From contig NZ_FOYL01000007.1 in NCBI RefSeq assembly GCF_900115955.1, positions 124,001 through 188,000 of the forward strand: DNA of 64,000 nt, given 5' to 3'. The notes below the pieces were generated by a model that saw only the letters and a list, made by a program, of their open reading frames with translations, made no database searches and was not told where the DNA came from. Source of the stretch: Lentzea waywayandensis (GTDB lineage: Bacteria > Actinomycetota > Actinomycetes > Mycobacteriales > Pseudonocardiaceae). This document shows positions 25,218 through 52,788 of this stretch, one piece after another (positions within the stretch are counted from its first letter, which is position 1; every line of letters starts with the position of its first letter). Position numbers and translations under genes: made by a program.

Positions 25218-25366
25218 GCAACGAGTCTTTGGACTTCGTCCGCAAAAGACCCATTGCAAAGGGGCGGTCCAGCCCGACCAACAGCAGCCGACCGACCCGT
25301 CTCGCCGCCCCTGCCCGCCCACCTTTGCAATGAGTCTTTTGACTTCGTCCGCAAACGTTTTTTGCA
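25218..25366. repeat. Two hairpin repeats (copies A and B) in the 329-base edd-eda gap
   Basis: Copy A (25218-25257) reads GCAACGAGTCTTT, then GGAC-TTC-GTCC, then AAAGACCCATTGC, an imperfect stem. Copy B (25326-25366) reads GCAATGAGTCTTTTGAC-TTC-GTCCGCAAACG. The two are direct near-repeats 109 bases apart. The rest of the gap is GC-rich with no credible gene. The sequence left of copy A (TTAGCAACGAGTC and the GGCTGACCTGCC before it) recurs inverted beside copy C at 34.9 kb. Confidence 0.7.
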
Positions 25367-33426: not shown

Positions 33427-33475
33427 GCAATTGGTCGTGTGATGCACGTCACATCAGCGTCTGTGCATGTCTCGT

Positions 33476-33501
33476 GAACTTGGACCCCACCTGCGCGTAT
33501 C
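33476..33501 (+). promoter_or_regulatory. Candidate ECF promoter of the DUF4142 gene
   Basis: GAAC (33476-33479), a 16-base spacer, then CGTATC (33496-33501), about 40 bases before the DUF4142 start. It mirrors the element ahead of the divergent sigma gene. Confidence 0.5.
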
Positions 33502-33541
33502 ACCTTCGAAGGCAGCTCGATCGCGGGAGGGAACGGGCACT

Positions 33542-34771
33542 ATGCGTCACCGGTTGGGCACGCTGGGAGAGCACGCAGCGCTGTTTACCATCCTGTCCGT
33601 CGTATTTCTGGGGGCTTTCATCGGAGCCGTCCCCGCAAGTGCGCAATCGACAGAAGTACAGCCGTCGGACCGCTCATTCATGGTATCTCTGCGCCAAGCA
33701 AACTCTTGGTTGATACCGGTGAGCAAAGAAGCTCCGGCACGCACGACGAACACAGGGATAAGCAACGCCGGACGGGACATCTTCGAAGGGCATTCGCGAC
33801 TCGACATCGATCTTCTCAAATCCGCCGAAGGACTCGGCGTGGTCCTGCCGAACGACGTCAGCAGTGAGCACCAGGCCATCATCGACGAGATGGCGCAACG
33901 CACCGGGGACACCCACGACCGCGCCTACGCGACGATCGTCCGGCAGACCCAGGGCGGCCTTCTCGTCATGGCCGTGCAAACGCGGGCGACAACGCAGAAC
34001 ACCACAATTCGCACGCTCGCCCACCAGACCGTGCAAATGCTGATTCGTACAATGACGGTTCTGGAGAACACCGGCAGGGTCGACCCGTCGGCGCTCGAAT
34101 TGGTGACGGCCAAGGCTCAGGTGAACGCGGTCCGCGTCATCGGCCAGAACGTAGAACCGTCGGACCGGGAATTGCTCGTGATGCTCACCCAGCATTCGCT
34201 TTGGCAGAAACCGTCCAGCCGCGAGAGCTCGGACCGTGCCCGCGACGCGAAGGTCCGCAAGGTCGCCGGCCAGCTCGCCGCCGAGCACACCCAGCTGGCC
34301 CAGGCGGTCACCGAGGCCGCGCGGCAGGTCGGCGTGGACCTCCCGGTCGAACCGACGACGGAACAGAAGTCGTGGGCGAACGCCATCTCGTCCAGTTCCG
34401 GCGACGAGCTCGACCGGATGTACACGAACCTGTCCCGCGCCGCCGACGGCTCGCTCATCACCCAGGTCGCCCACGCCCGCGCGACGACCAAGAACGTCCC
34501 CGCGCGCATCGCCGCGCAGACGGCCCTGACCCTCCTGCTCAAGCACATGCTCCTGCTGGAGAGCACCGGCCTGGTGAAGGCGAACTCGCTGCAGATGACC
34601 AACGCCCCGGCCATCGCGCAGCCGAAGTCCAACAGCAGCCCGCCGCCCCAGCCCGACGACTCGTCCACGAGCGTCGGCTTCCTCACCGGCATCGTCGTCC
34701 TCGTCGTCGCCGGCGCGGGCACCCTCTGGCTCGTCCGAGCAGTGGGCCACCACGGCGAACACCGCCGCTGA
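33542..34771 (+). CDS. Membrane-anchored extracytoplasmic protein with two DUF4142 domains
   Basis: 409 residues. A signal peptide (ALFTILSVVFLGAFIGAVPA, then SAQ) leads into two DUF4142 (ferritin-like helical) domains, roughly residues 40-185 and 190-350: SDRSFMVSLRQANSWLIPVS and SDRELLVMLTQHSLWQKPSS begin the two copies, and each has a His/Leu-rich helical core (EGHSRLDIDLLKSAEGLGVV; AAEHTQLAQAVTEAARQVGV). A proline/serine linker and a C-terminal helix (FLTGIVVLVVAGAGTLWLVR) anchor it in the membrane facing outward. The shared promoter motif with the divergent ECF sigma gene suggests an envelope-stress output. Confidence 0.85.
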   Translation: MRHRLGTLGEHAALFTILSVVFLGAFIGAVPASAQSTEVQPSDRSFMVSLRQANSWLIPVSKEAPARTTNTGISNAGRDIFEGHSRLDIDLLKSAEGLGVVLPNDVSSEHQAIIDEMAQRTGDTHDRAYATIVRQTQGGLLVMAVQTRATTQNTTIRTLAHQTVQMLIRTMTVLENTGRVDPSALELVTAKAQVNAVRVIGQNVEPSDRELLVMLTQHSLWQKPSSRESSDRARDAKVRKVAGQLAAEHTQLAQAVTEAARQVGVDLPVEPTTEQKSWANAISSSSGDELDRMYTNLSRAADGSLITQVAHARATTKNVPARIAAQTALTLLLKHMLLLESTGLVKANSLQMTNAPAIAQPKSNSSPPPQPDDSSTSVGFLTGIVVLVVAGAGTLWLVRAVGHHGEHRR

Positions 34772-34782
34772 CCGCTCGCCCA

Positions 34783-34822
34783 CCGATATATCGGCTGTCG
34801 CCCTCGCCACCCGATGTATCAG
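34783..34822. repeat. Two GATATATC-family motifs after the DUF4142 gene
   Basis: Perfect palindrome CCGATATATCGG (34783-34794), 12 bases after the stop codon, and CCGATGTATCAG (34811-34822). They flank hairpin copy C. The 261-base convergent gap 34772-35032 holds no gene. Confidence 0.6.
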
Positions 34823-34873
34823 TGCCCGGCAGGCCTTCCGCCAGCCCGCCGGGCACACCTCACCACGCCCTTG

Positions 34874-34913
34874 GCAATGAGTCTTTTGCGGACGTCGGCA
34901 AAAGACTCATTGC
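34874..34913. repeat. Hairpin repeat copy C, possible bidirectional terminator
   Basis: GCAATGAGTCTTTTGC (34874-34889) pairs perfectly over 16 bases with 34898-34913 around the loop GGACGTCG. It lies between the convergent DUF4142 and HD-kinase genes. Sequence to its right (CTAAGCGGCAGGTCAGCA) is homologous, inverted, to sequence left of copy A at 25.2 kb. Confidence 0.75.
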
Positions 34914-34992
34914 TAAGCGGCAGGTCAGCAGGAGTAGCGGGTCGACAGGATCAGGGCGAAGGCGCGAACAGGCCGAGCGGCGCCGGACCCCG

Positions 34993-35027
34993 CCGAACCG
35001 ATATATGGATCTTGCAGAGCGGTTCGG
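34993..35027 (-). terminator. Weak hairpin with GATATATGG in its loop
   Basis: CCGAACCG (34993-35000) pairs with CGGTTCGG (35020-35027). It lies just past the HD-kinase stop on the minus strand and could be its terminator. The degenerate motif CCGATATATGGA (34998-35009) overlaps the left arm. Confidence 0.4.
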
Positions 35028-35032
35028 AGGGC

Positions 35033-36166
35033 CTACGTACGCGTCGGGGTTCGTGCCGTGTCCACCCGTTCGACGGCGTGCGCCTCGGTGGGATCGACCG
35101 CCTCCCACTTGCCGGCGAGCCGGTCGATCACCGCGGCCGGTACCGGTTCCGGGCGAGCGCGGTTGCGAGCGTGGATCACGTTCTTCGGCGCCTCGAGCCC
35201 GATCAGGGTGATCCGGGCGTGGTAGTCCGCGGCGAGTCCGATGCAACGCTCGCGCAGTTGCTGGGAGATGTTGGTCGCGTTCCAGACGAACCGCTCCCCC
35301 GCTCGCAGCAGCGTCCTGGCTTCCTCGAACGCGGCGGCGGCCACCGCGCGCTGGTCGCCGTCGGGCGCGATGCCGAGCCGGGAGCGCACCGCGTCGAGGC
35401 TCACCACGTGCCAGCCCGGCCGGTGCTGGGCGATCCAGTGGTCCTTGCCGACGCCAGGCAGGCCGGACAGCACGGTCACCTCGACGCGCGTGTCGTCGTA
35501 GGCGGCGTAGTCCGGGTCGCGGCCGGGCGTGCGGAAGTACTGGAAGCGGGCGTGGTCGGACGGGAAGGCGCGCGGCCGGTCGAGGCAGTCGCGTTCGCGG
35601 CAGTACTCCTCGAACAGCGCGATGTTCTCCAGCACCGAGTCGGCGTCGCCGCAGATCCGGCCGAGGATGTCGGCGCGGGCGAGCGTCGCCAGGTCGTCGT
35701 TGCGCGCGAGCAGGCTCACCCGGAACGCGATGCGGTCGAGGTCGGGGCGTTCCAATGCCCAGAACGGCACCTGGTGGTGCCGCACCAGCGCGGCGACGTG
35801 CTCGCGCCAGGCGATCGGGCGTCCCATCTCCCACAGCAGCTTGCGCGCCAGCAGATCGCCGGCGCGCGAGTGTCCGTGCGCGGTGACGCGGCCGTCCGCG
35901 ATCTGCGTGCGGAACGGCTTCGCGGCATCGTGCAGCAGCACCGTCGCGAACAACCGCACGCGGTCCGCTTCGGGACGCGCGCGCCATTCGGGCAGCGACA
36001 CCAGGGCCTCGCAGGCCATCCGGGTGTGCGTGGCGACGTCGCCTTCCGCGTGGTGCACGGGGTCCTGCTGTACGCCTTCCATCGCGCGCACCCAGGGGAA
36101 CGCCGAGCGCACGGCGTCCCAGTCGAGAGTCCACTGCGGACCGGCGGGGCAGAGTTGCTCAAACAC
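35033..36166 (-). CDS. HD-domain phosphohydrolase fused to P-loop polynucleotide kinase (HD-Pnk-like)
   Basis: 377 residues. Residues ~30-170 are an HD domain: HHAEGDVATHTRMACEAL, His79-Asp80 in TVLLHDAAKPFRTQ, GHSRAGDLLARKLLWEMG and VRHHQVPFW. Residues ~225-377 are a P-loop kinase: VTVLSGLPGVGKDHWIAQH (Lys241 in Walker A), HVVSLDAVRSRLG, and a lid-like FVWNATNISQQLRERC. This is the layout of the characterised Runella HD-Pnk, an end-healing enzyme that removes 2',3'-cyclic or 3' phosphates and phosphorylates 5'-OH ends. It overlaps the RNA ligase gene by 8 bases, so healing and sealing enzymes are made together. The exact substrate, RNA or DNA, cannot be read from sequence. Confidence 0.85.
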   Translation of the reverse strand: MFEQLCPAGPQWTLDWDAVRSAFPWVRAMEGVQQDPVHHAEGDVATHTRMACEALVSLPEWRARPEADRVRLFATVLLHDAAKPFRTQIADGRVTAHGHSRAGDLLARKLLWEMGRPIAWREHVAALVRHHQVPFWALERPDLDRIAFRVSLLARNDDLATLARADILGRICGDADSVLENIALFEEYCRERDCLDRPRAFPSDHARFQYFRTPGRDPDYAAYDDTRVEVTVLSGLPGVGKDHWIAQHRPGWHVVSLDAVRSRLGIAPDGDQRAVAAAAFEEARTLLRAGERFVWNATNISQQLRERCIGLAADYHARITLIGLEAPKNVIHARNRARPEPVPAAVIDRLAGKWEAVDPTEAHAVERVDTARTPTRT

Positions 36167-36926
36167 GGGTCACCACCTGGTTCGGCAGGATCGGGCGGTC
36201 CTGCCAGTGGCTGCCCGAGTCCAGCACGGCGGTGGCGAACGTCGGCCGCACCCACTTGTAGCGCTCGACCGTGCGTCCGTCCTCCTCCACCTTGATGTAG
36301 AGGCCTTCCATGTCGTCGTCCGAATCCGTCTCCGCGACAACGACTTCCGGGTCCTGCCCCGCCGCCCGTGCCGCCTCGACCAGCGCGTCACGCCACCCCG
36401 GAGTGCGGCACAGGGACGGGCCGATCAGCGCGGTCAGGTCTTTGAGCTTGCGCAACGGCCCTTCGTGCAGCACCGGCACGGACACCACCGGTGTGCCGGC
36501 GAGCACCCGGCGACGTTCCGGCGTGGACAGGAACTCGCCGGTCTCGCGGTCGAGCAGGTCGAACTCGCAGAAGTGGTGCGGCAGCGCGTCGTAGAACACG
36601 GTGTGCTTGGCGTACAACCATTCCCCGTAGAGCACGTACCGCGTGCCGAGCCTCTCCCACAGCACGCCCTGGTGCGTCGCGGCCCAGGCCTTCAGCAGCG
36701 CGAACTGCCGTTCCCGCGGCCCGCCCACCAGGAAATGGCCGCGTGACTGGAGTTTCAGCACACCGCCGGAGTCGAAGCTGATGCCCGCGTTGGCACCGTC
36801 GAGCTTCTCCTCGACGACCAGGTGCCGTCCCGCGATCGCGCGGAACGGCACCTGGTCGAGGTCCTCGTCGCCCGGTTGCAGGCGCGAGCCCTCCAGGTGG
36901 GGCGTTCGCGGGTACTTGCGCAACAT
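36159..36926 (-). CDS. ATP-dependent RNA ligase family protein
   Basis: 255 residues of the covalent nucleotidyltransferase superfamily. Motif I with the adenylated lysine is HLVVEEKLDGANAGISFDS (Lys41); later motifs are GTRYVLYGEWLYAKHTVFYD, HHFCEFDLLDRETGEF (motif III/IIIa), DDMEGLYIKVEEDG (motif IV, EG) and VERYKWVRPTFATAV (motif V, YKWVR). It is short, essentially a catalytic core like other small RNA ligases. First gene of a two-gene operon with the HD-kinase. Together they can in principle heal and seal broken RNA, for example tRNA cut by a toxin. Confidence 0.88.
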   Translation of the reverse strand: MLRKYPRTPHLEGSRLQPGDEDLDQVPFRAIAGRHLVVEEKLDGANAGISFDSGGVLKLQSRGHFLVGGPRERQFALLKAWAATHQGVLWERLGTRYVLYGEWLYAKHTVFYDALPHHFCEFDLLDRETGEFLSTPERRRVLAGTPVVSVPVLHEGPLRKLKDLTALIGPSLCRTPGWRDALVEAARAAGQDPEVVVAETDSDDDMEGLYIKVEEDGRTVERYKWVRPTFATAVLDSGSHWQDRPILPNQVVTRV

Positions 36927-36968
36927 GCCCCGATTTGTATCCCGTTCGTGCGCCCGCGAGCGAACGGT

Positions 36969-37730
36969 TTACGCCTGGCCGACGAACGCCGCCTTGTCGG
37001 AGTTGAAGGTCGGCTCGAACACGAGCTGCATCTCGCCGGGCTGCGCGCCCACCGCGTACGCGACGTGGAAGGTGTAGGTCTTGCCCGGCAGCACGGTCGC
37101 CGAGTCGAACGTGCTGTCGCAGCCGCCGCTGCTGTCGAACACCATGTCGGCCTTCTGCCCGTTGAACTGCGCGTCGGTGCCGACCGACATCAGCGCGGTC
37201 TCGAACGCGGCGCTCGTCCCGTTGGTGATGGTGATCTCGAACTTCACCGCGCGGGCGATGTTCGGCGGCGCCGCGTACTGGCCGGGCGTGCACGCGACCG
37301 GTGCGGCGACGTCGACGGAAAGGCCGTTCGCCCACGAGTACCGCTTGCCCCAGGTGGGATTCTCGGCGATCGCGTCCTGCCTGGCGGTCTCACCGGGGGC
37401 GCCGACCTGACCCTGGTTGACGTCGCCGCCGAGGATCTTGTCGAGCTCCTTGACCGCGGCCTGCTGCGCCACCACGGTCAGCACGATCGCCAGGACACAA
37501 AGGACGACACCGACCGCCGCGAGAACCTTGCGGGTGCCGAACAACGCGATGACGCCGAGCACGATCCCGACGAACGCGGCGATCGCGGTGAGGTTGTTGA
37601 GGAAGATGACCCACGAGCCGACGACACCGACGATCCCGAGGATCACCGCGGTCCAGGCGAGCGCACCGAATCTTGTGGGTCTCTGCGGTGCGGCCGGAGG
37701 CGGGGTGTAGATGGGCGTGGGGTAGGTCAT
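36969..37730 (-). CDS. Membrane-anchored DUF4352-like protein
   Basis: 253 residues. A proline-rich cytoplasmic N-terminus (PTPIYTPPPAAPQRPTRFG) is followed by three hydrophobic segments (FGALAWTAVILGIVGVVGSW; LTAIAAFVGIVLGVIALFG; VLAAVGVVLCVLAIVLTVVA) and an outer domain of about 150 residues in which FEITITNGTSAAFETALMSV and LPGKTYTFHVAYAVGAQPGE resemble the Ig-like DUF4352 fold. Function unknown. ATG 37730 was preferred over GTG 37733 because AGGAG lies 5 bases before it. The 142-base gap to the divergent protease gene holds the perfect palindrome ACTCGATCGAGT (37809-37820). Confidence 0.8.
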   Translation of the reverse strand: MTYPTPIYTPPPAAPQRPTRFGALAWTAVILGIVGVVGSWVIFLNNLTAIAAFVGIVLGVIALFGTRKVLAAVGVVLCVLAIVLTVVAQQAAVKELDKILGGDVNQGQVGAPGETARQDAIAENPTWGKRYSWANGLSVDVAAPVACTPGQYAAPPNIARAVKFEITITNGTSAAFETALMSVGTDAQFNGQKADMVFDSSGGCDSTFDSATVLPGKTYTFHVAYAVGAQPGEMQLVFEPTFNSDKAAFVGQA

Positions 37731-37875
37731 CACGGCTCCTGGCGGTTGCGATGTGTGACCACGACGTCGATTGGTCTGCTTTACCCGTTAGCCCCACCCA
37801 GCAGCGTCACTCGATCGAGTTACGATCGGCCAGTCAGCCGACTGCCGAAGGTAGCGAAGCGACTACGATCCGTAC

Positions 37876-40719: not shown

Positions 40720-41766
40720 TCAGAACTCGACCGGAGCGACGGGAACCGTCTCGTCGGCGTCGAGGGTGGCGCCGATGCCGAGCTTGTCCTTGATGCGCTT
40801 CTCGACCTCGTTGGCGATGTCCGGGTTGTCCAGCAGGAACTTGCGGGCGTTCTCCTTGCCCTGACCCAGCTGGTCGCCCTCGTAGGTGTACCAGGCGCCG
40901 GACTTGCGCAGGATGCCCTGGTCGACACCCATGTCGATGAGCGAGCCCTCGCGGCTGATGCCCTTGCCGTAGAGGATGTCGAACTCGGCCTGCTTGAACG
41001 GCGGCGCGACCTTGTTCTTCACGACCTTGACCCTGGTGCGGTTGCCGACGGGCTCGCCGCCGTCCTTCAGGGTCTCGATGCGGCGCACGTCCAGACGCAC
41101 GGAGGCGTAGAACTTCAGCGCCTTACCACCGGTCGTGGTCTCCGGGGAGCCGAACATCACGCCGATCTTCTCGCGCAGCTGGTTGATGAAGATCGCGGTC
41201 GTGTTGGAGTTGCTGAGCGCACCCGTGATCTTGCGCAGCGCCTGGCTCATCAGGCGGGCCTGCAGACCGACGTGGTTGTCGCCCATCTCGCCCTCGATCT
41301 CGGCGCGCGGCACGAGGGCGGCGACCGAGTCGATGACCAGGATGTCGAGTGCGCCGGAGCGGACCAGCATGTCCGCGATCTCGAGCGCCTGCTCACCGGT
41401 GTCGGGCTGCGACACCAGGAGCGCGTCGGTGTCGACGCCCAGCTTCTTCGCGTACTCGGGGTCCAGGGCGTGCTCCGCGTCGATGAACGCCGCGATGCCG
41501 CCGGCCTTCTGCGCGTTCGCCACGGCGTGCAGCGCCACGGTCGTCTTACCCGACGACTCCGGACCGTAGATCTCGACGACCCGGCCACGCGGCAGGCCAC
41601 CGATGCCGAGCGCCACGTCCAGGGCGATCGCGCCGGTCGGGATCACGGCGATCGGGGCGCGGCCCTCTTCACCGAGGCGCATCACGGAGCCCTTGCCGAA
41701 CTGCTTGTCGATCTGCGCCAGGGCCAGCTCGAGCGCTTTGTCCCGGTCGGGTGCTGCGGGTGCCAT
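40720..41766 (-). CDS. recA: Recombinase RecA
   Basis: 348 residues, central to homologous recombination and SOS induction. Walker [19 protein letters not shown], Walker [22 protein letters not shown]2 loop [20 protein letters not shown] and the acidic C-terminus are all intact; no intein interrupts it, unlike M. tuberculosis. ATG 41766 gives the usual N-terminus [21 protein letters not shown] consensus SOS box lies 105 bases upstream. Confidence 0.98.
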
Positions 41767-41871
41767 CTTGGGTCCACCTTTTGTCGTCTGCCGTTGCTTC
41801 GTCATGTTGGACCTGACGCTACTGGCGGGGTCTGACAATTCTGCGAAGCCGGGGGTCGGGGCCACTGTAGC

Positions 41872-41885
41872 CGAACACGTGTTCG
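41872..41885. promoter_or_regulatory. SOS box (LexA site) of recA
   Basis: CGAACACGTGTTCG, a perfect palindrome that fits the actinobacterial LexA consensus CGAAC-N4-GTTCG, located between the DUF3046 gene and recA. Confidence 0.92.
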
Positions 41886-41913
41886 AGCACACGCGACACT
41901 CCCGGCTCCTCGC

Positions 41914-52766: not shown

Positions 52767-52788
52767 GACTCGAACATGTGTTCGAGTC
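52767..52788. promoter_or_regulatory. SOS box upstream of the HEPN gene
   Basis: CGAACATGTGTTCG (52771-52784) matches the actinobacterial LexA consensus; symmetry extends to GACTCGAACA-TG-TGTTCGAGTC, 10-base perfect arms. It lies 104 bases before the HEPN start and 79 bases from the divergent YbaK start. Confidence 0.85.

Follow-up and report, generated by a model that had tools for sequence, protein, structure and literature searches.

RNA repair by Pnkp/Hen1 brings kinase, phosphoesterase and ligase activities together; Pnkp is a single chain, and its phosphoesterase differs from that of HD-Pnk. The HD-Pnk of Runella slithyformis reportedly has its HD domain before its kinase domain, the order also found in the Lentzea HD-Pnk described here, and Burroughs and Aravind are said to have surveyed RNA repair systems. 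This type of cassette is already in print. The Lentzea pair itself is named in no title or abstract opening found by our literature search.

The closest described system is the DRB0100-DRB0099-DRB0098 operon of Deinococcus radiodurans, which Blasius et al. described as radiation-induced (accessible part of PMC1997131). According to the same text, DRB0098 is a working 5'-OH kinase whose HD activity was not proven: the 3'-phosphatase signal was no lower with the HD pair mutated and may come from a contaminant. Purified DRB0100 is reported there to adenylate itself at K40 and to ligate neither DNA nor RNA in vitro, nor DNA when combined with the other operon proteins, and it is described as seeming to have no motif V. 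Disruption of DRB0100 left radiation resistance unchanged (PMC1978522, accessible part). The middle gene, DRB0099, encodes a PARG, and bacterial PARGs strip ADP-ribose from nucleic-acid ends (PMC11833690, accessible part); ddrP is named among the radiation-induced genes (PMC5552922, accessible part). The title of Schmier and Shuman (2018), as cited in PMC9146567, states that the D. radiodurans HD-Pnk abets resistance to ionizing radiation and mitomycin C.

The ligase/HD-Pnk locus and its proteins

The window, that is, the whole stretch of 64,000 nucleotides of Lentzea waywayandensis DNA that was analyzed (host genome, 10.15 Mb), contains a ligase gene followed by an HD-Pnk gene (Table 1). A preliminary description of this DNA had claimed an 8-base overlap between the genes for a 255-residue ligase and a 377-residue HD-kinase protein, with which the open reading frames agreed; the same overlap was found in 10 of 10 Lentzea loci, the window's own genome included. 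Upstream, a 254-aa ORF on the − strand (36969-37733), for which no Pfam match was found at E 0.001, stops 42 bases short of the ligase. On the downstream side, the first ORF to match Pfam runs convergently (33467-34771, + strand). No promoter- or terminator-like sites were found at 34700-37200, and a tRNA and Rfam search of the whole window at default thresholds returned none. The pair had been placed away from core genes; this was wrong, since recA sits at 40720-41892.

Table 1. Features of the ligase/HD-Pnk locus (positions in the window)
Feature	Position	Strand	Support
RNA_ligase-family nucleotidyltransferase (first gene, 255 aa)	36159..36926	-	ORF, ATG start; Pfam
Ligase motif I, KLDG, nucleophile K41	36795..36806	-	K41 in 33/33 pairs and 120/120 listed homologues
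Ligase motif IV, EG (207-208)	36303..36308	-	33/33 pairs
Ligase motif V, YKWVR (223-227)	36246..36260	-	K224 in 33/33, R227 in 32/33 pairs
Ligase conserved C-terminal tail, H240 ... N249	36180..36209	-	both in 33/33 pairs and 120/120 listed homologues
Overlap of ligase and HD-Pnk genes, 8 bases	36159..36166	-	ORF coordinates
HD-Pnk, 377 aa, GTG start	35033..36166	-	ORF, PF01966 and PF13671, model, fold matches
HD domain, residues 1-194, ligand candidates H47, H79, D80, D166	35585..36166	-	
P-loop kinase domain, residues 226-376, K241, D258, R261, R305, R338	35039..35491	-	
Perfect palindromic repeat, in the gap between the convergent genes after the pair	34876..34911		

The ligase matched the Pfam RNA_ligase family (E 3.1e-37), and its confident structural model matched the folds of RNA ligases, with nick-sealing RNA ligases nearest. 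The KLDG motif at Lys41 and the EG and YKWVR motifs, which had been listed earlier for a 255-residue ligase core, were all present, correctly numbered and conserved. The family consists of a single nucleotidyltransferase domain with a conserved His...Asn tail. The fold alignment with 2hvq covers residues 1-234 of that 317-residue chain, and the tail lies beyond model residue 237, where the alignment with the Naegleria ligase ends. Rnl5 ligases, to which we take the Naegleria RNA ligase and Deinococcus DRB0094 to belong, are defined by an N-terminal OB-fold domain before the nucleotidyltransferase domain, and T4 Rnl2-type ligases by a separate C-terminal domain after motif V. Membership in either type was rejected: the OB-fold domain (PF21189) was found in DRB0094 and not in the window protein, which has only 40 residues before K41 and no more than 28 after motif V. 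Relative to these Rnl5 ligases, the Lentzea ligase also carries the extra conserved C-terminal tail, and the ligase family profile scored DRB0094 at only 7.6 bits.

For HD-Pnk, the Pfam matches to HD (PF01966, E 1.4e-5) and AAA_33 (PF13671, E 5.9e-21), the model (pLDDT 96.0) and the fold matches agreed on an N-terminal HD domain followed by a C-terminal P-loop kinase in one chain. For the HD region, the nearest match was that of a tRNA-processing enzyme; the kinase part matched polynucleotide kinases, with the kinase domain of Pnkp as the nearest solved structure. An H...HD...D metal-ligand signature, a P-loop GK and a DxxR were present by sequence. Both the HD motif at His79-Asp80 and the P-loop Lys241 of the preliminary description were found and are conserved, and the models of the two proteins bore out its domain assignments. 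The protein was rejected as a Pnkp (TIGR04075), scoring 40.3 bits against a cut-off of 750. A separate complete Pnkp (TIGR04075, 1309 bits) is encoded elsewhere in the host genome (contig C10:295030-297495), and therefore the ligase/HD-Pnk pair is not its only end-repair set. PADLOC returned no match for the ligase and matched the HD protein just weakly, to Cas3-HD (E 0.0096), and a known defense system was rejected for want of PADLOC support.

Conservation was read from two sets, both collected by similarity: 33 ligase/HD-Pnk pairs from fetched loci, which include two from Lentzea and three from one other actinomycete genus, and 120 homologues per protein, the best 120 each of the 7694 and 1161 proteins matched. 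All 33 pairs retained K41, D43, E207, G208, K224, H240, and N249 of the ligase and H47, H79, D80, D166, K241, D258, R261, R305, and R338 of HD-Pnk, and G44, R62, E102, and R227 of the ligase were kept in 32 of the 33. Among the 120 listed homologues, K41, D43, E207, and K224 of the ligase and H47, H79, D80, D166, K241, and D258 of HD-Pnk were again invariant, so that the candidate HD metal ligands, read by sequence conservation, were intact in both sets; R261 (119/120) was the lone exception among the invariant residues of both proteins. Because the catalytic residues are invariant in 33/33 pairs and 120/120 listed homologues, the observation is not due to chance; since the sets were collected by similarity, they show an intact family and are not on their own proof of activity. 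The distance matrices of the two proteins correlated at r 0.878 across the 33 pairs (0 of 5000 permutations as high), a value that common host descent alone could yield. Judged by its sequence, the pair is real and conserved and looks functional.

The Lentzea pair is the two-gene form of the DRB0100-(DRB0099)-DRB0098 operon. In both operons the ligase comes first and HD-Pnk last, on the same strand and with overlapping genes, and the nucleophilic lysine lies at position 40 or 41; like DRB0100, the Lentzea ligase has a nucleotidyltransferase domain only, with its motif I lysine, and is encoded upstream of HD-Pnk. In D. radiodurans, a PARG gene (PF10021) lies between the two, whereas the Lentzea pair has none, and DRB0100 has 210 aa compared with 255 aa in Lentzea. 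Deinococcus sp. QL22 and KNUC1210 have a two-gene form with a 4-base overlap, the layout nearest to the Lentzea pair. Profiles built without Deinococcus rows recognized DRB0100 (143.8 bits) and DRB0098 (255.4 bits), and BLASTP aligned the window's HD-Pnk with the biochemically tested DRB0098 over most of its length (E 4.5e-18, window residues 19-347); identity between the Lentzea and Deinococcus proteins is only 27-29%. DRB0100 has an AKWVR, which the wider alignment placed under YKWVR and the smaller alignment shifted. The Lentzea pair is a well-preserved further example of the Deinococcus-type pair and no new system.

Linkage across chromosomes, plasmids and viral contigs

In a sample of 296 actinomycete genomes, for each of which no more than 6 or 9 candidates were scored, HD-Pnk (E up to 1e-30) was found in 6, the ligase in the same 6, and the two were adjacent in 6/6. 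Some HD-Pnk match at E 0.001 was obtained in 45 of 60 relatives; the full-length protein was present in 24/24 Lentzea genomes searched and in 0/36 others, the remaining matches being partial, to the kinase or HD regions. The ligase was found beside HD-Pnk in every one of the 24, and the distance from HD-Pnk to recA was 2301-5540 bases throughout. Because the pair occupies the same recA-proximal place in 24/24 Lentzea genomes, a mobile or accessory island was rejected there; outside Lentzea, the pair occurs on plasmids and viral contigs. In one of the 24 genomes (G010, C24:297144-298259), the HD-Pnk copy has one in-frame TGA and is either decayed or an assembly error.

A scan of named genomes with one HD pattern, in which 80 of 227 confirmed loci were kept, yielded 19 full-length HD-Pnk loci (profile positions from <130 to >300). 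The ligase lay upstream on the same strand at 17 of these 19, in cyanobacteria, Pseudobacteroides, a clostridial MAG, proteobacteria, and Lentzea, with a spacing of −17 to +1085 bases by the start codons chosen here. At the other two (a Thermoguttaceae and an Acidobacteria MAG), no ligase was found in the stretch around HD-Pnk. HD-Pnk matched 46 plasmid records, of which 18 regions were read and 12 had a ligase beside it. The first 8 regions, which were partly chosen for a nearby ligase match, have one in 8/8; the 10 later regions have one in 4, upstream in three (one at just 66.3 bits) and downstream in one. The remaining 6 showed no ligase beside HD-Pnk, which in one of them is cut short beside an IS3 element. 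Among the plasmid matches listed, the closest ligase lay ~73 kb away in Miltoncostaea, ~378 kb in Rhizobium leguminosarum and ~8-11 kb in Vibrio records. On viral contigs, a ligase lay beside HD-Pnk at 6 of the 28 loci counted full-length, some of which are near-identical to each other (5 upstream, 1 downstream), and no ligase was found within the stretch around HD-Pnk at the other 22; two of the upstream cases are on contigs of over 380 kb.

On the named-genome, plasmid and viral counts, the pair is a recurrent rather than an obligatory unit, and the late plasmid count (4/10) led us to call the linkage frequent and not general. Universal linkage was rejected because of the ligase-free loci in all three samples.

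On P. aeruginosa plasmid p4782_002, the pair and three small genes are flanked by two IS21-family copies, a layout suggesting that the pair is able to move. In Pseudomonas sp. FeN3W, the plasmid gene after HD-Pnk encodes a 360-aa RNA_ligase-family protein of another architecture (ligase domain 167-318), and HD-Pnk lies near RecX and umuD genes. The Miltoncostaea oceani plasmid, where no ligase adjoins HD-Pnk, has an NTP pyrophosphohydrolase-family gene before HD-Pnk and an S1 RNA-binding-domain gene after it.

Possible functions of the pair

We read the locus as a cassette of two enzymes that heals and seals ends and corresponds to the Deinococcus DRB0100/DRB0098 set in two-gene form, with a probability of about 0.75 that rests mainly on the domains and conserved residues. 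A heal-and-seal pair is likely because of the HD-Pnk domain order, the conserved active-site residues and the frequent linkage. The HD domain would most likely generate a 3'-OH by clearing a 2',3'-cyclic or 3' phosphate, the kinase domain would phosphorylate the 5'-OH, and the ligase would take AMP at K41 and then join the healed ends. For the Lentzea HD-Pnk, the kinase and phosphoesterase chemistry is predicted from the family; sealing by the Lentzea ligase, on RNA, DNA or both, is only a predicted step. Of the complete heal-and-seal pathway claimed earlier, the domain order, active sites and linkage stood, while sealing was set in doubt by the absence of ligation with DRB0100. Also weighing against the cassette reading are the result of mutating the HD pair of DRB0098, the unchanged radiation resistance after DRB0100 disruption, the low identity to the Deinococcus proteins, and the loci where the ligase lies downstream of HD-Pnk or was not found beside it.

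A general role in strand-break repair is probable, because the pair is present in every Lentzea genome searched and lies next to recA. The recA proximity and the title on the Deinococcus HD-Pnk favor such a role; the fold relatives of the ligase and HD domain, together with the viral copies, favor an RNA substrate. DNA ends are at least as likely as RNA ends, because that title ties the Deinococcus enzyme to radiation and mitomycin C resistance. The stricter view that the cassette serves chromosomal DNA strand-break repair, with RNA not its main substrate, is plausible at slightly under even odds. It is consistent with recA lying within 2.3-5.5 kb in 24/24 Lentzea genomes searched, with radiation induction of the Deinococcus operon (PMC1997131, accessible part) and with the resistance title (cited in PMC9146567); however, the folds closest to that of the ligase belong to nick-sealing RNA ligases, the DRB0100 knock-out was not radiation-sensitive (PMC1978522, accessible part), and recA has an exact SOS box that the 250 bases upstream of the ligase lack in 15 loci. 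Repair of RNA cut by toxins or phage-defense nucleases is possible, at appreciably less than even odds. Pointing that way are the 6/28 viral loci with a ligase beside HD-Pnk, as expected for phage counter-defense, the tRNA-processing enzyme that has the nearest HD domain, and the published repair of cleaved tRNA by phage kinase/ligase sets (PMC7824862, accessible part). PADLOC offered no support for it, though, the chromosomal place is fixed in Lentzea, unlike that of a mobile defense gene, and the genome already carries a full Pnkp. An RNA-only role, and the ribotoxin or phage-defense role that had been suggested, are not supported.

The sealing step itself may be read in other ways. That the 255-aa protein adenylates ends or another target without joining strands would fit a family with no second domain, the occurrence of HD-Pnk without a ligase, and a closest tested member that merely self-adenylates in the reported assays (PMC1997131, accessible part). 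We think this improbable: K41, D43, E207, and K224 are kept in 33/33 rows and R62, E102, and R227 in 32/33, which indicates selection on the step-1 and later ligase motifs, and the common pairing with an end-healing enzyme suggests sealing. A more speculative form of the sealing reading, which we also consider unlikely, places the ligase in a minimal OB-less family, with the conserved His240...Asn249 tail replacing a second domain; it would seal only nicks freshly healed by HD-Pnk, as a two-protein complex, on RNA and DNA. If true, this would explain why isolated DRB0100 did not ligate the substrates tried; against its simple version, DRB0100 with the two other operon proteins gave no DNA ligation (PMC1997131, accessible part). 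Publications on the Deinococcus operon date back to at least 2007, and the accessible parts of these sources report no sealing activity. The interest of the pair lies in the putative sealing step of the ligase family, and the Lentzea pair, with its tight overlap, its place beside recA and its longer ligase, is another pair for probing ligase joining and the coupling of healing to sealing.

Palindromic sites and a regional repeat

An exact SOS-box-like palindrome, CGAACACGTGTTCG, was found at 41872-41885, just inside the start of the listed recA ORF; the true recA start is probably further in, so that the palindrome lies upstream of it. A second exact SOS-box-like palindrome, CGAACATGTGTTCG, occurs at 52771-52784. 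Within 250 bases upstream of the ligase, an exact SOS box (GAAC-N4-GTTC) was found in 0/15 loci (10 from Lentzea and 5 from the other genus), and SOS control of the pair was rejected. A search for the RecA-NDp-like TTGTC[AG]GTG at up to one mismatch found none in these upstream regions, and none in the recA control stretch. CCGTTCG...CGAACGG stands directly before the ligase in 8 of 10 Lentzea loci; we gave it no weight because the same loose pattern occurs 27 times in the window.

The palindromic repeat downstream of the pair is of ~40 bases with the core CAATGAGTCTTTTG, and has further window copies at 25242-25256 and 25328-25342. The cassette had been placed between repeat elements; one palindrome does adjoin it, but the other window copies are ~10 kb off, and the repeat has no part in the pair's function. 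Its arm, at up to one mismatch, has 14 copies in the 10.15-Mb genome, compared with 0 for a reversed-letter control, and 13 of the 14 are on the window's own 476-kb contig (C14:15470-301889), the other being on C31. A looser pattern at up to two mismatches gave 37 matches against 26 for the control; at 0-1 mismatch it gave 20, of which 17 are on C14 and 3 on C31. The distribution of the repeat is strikingly regional.
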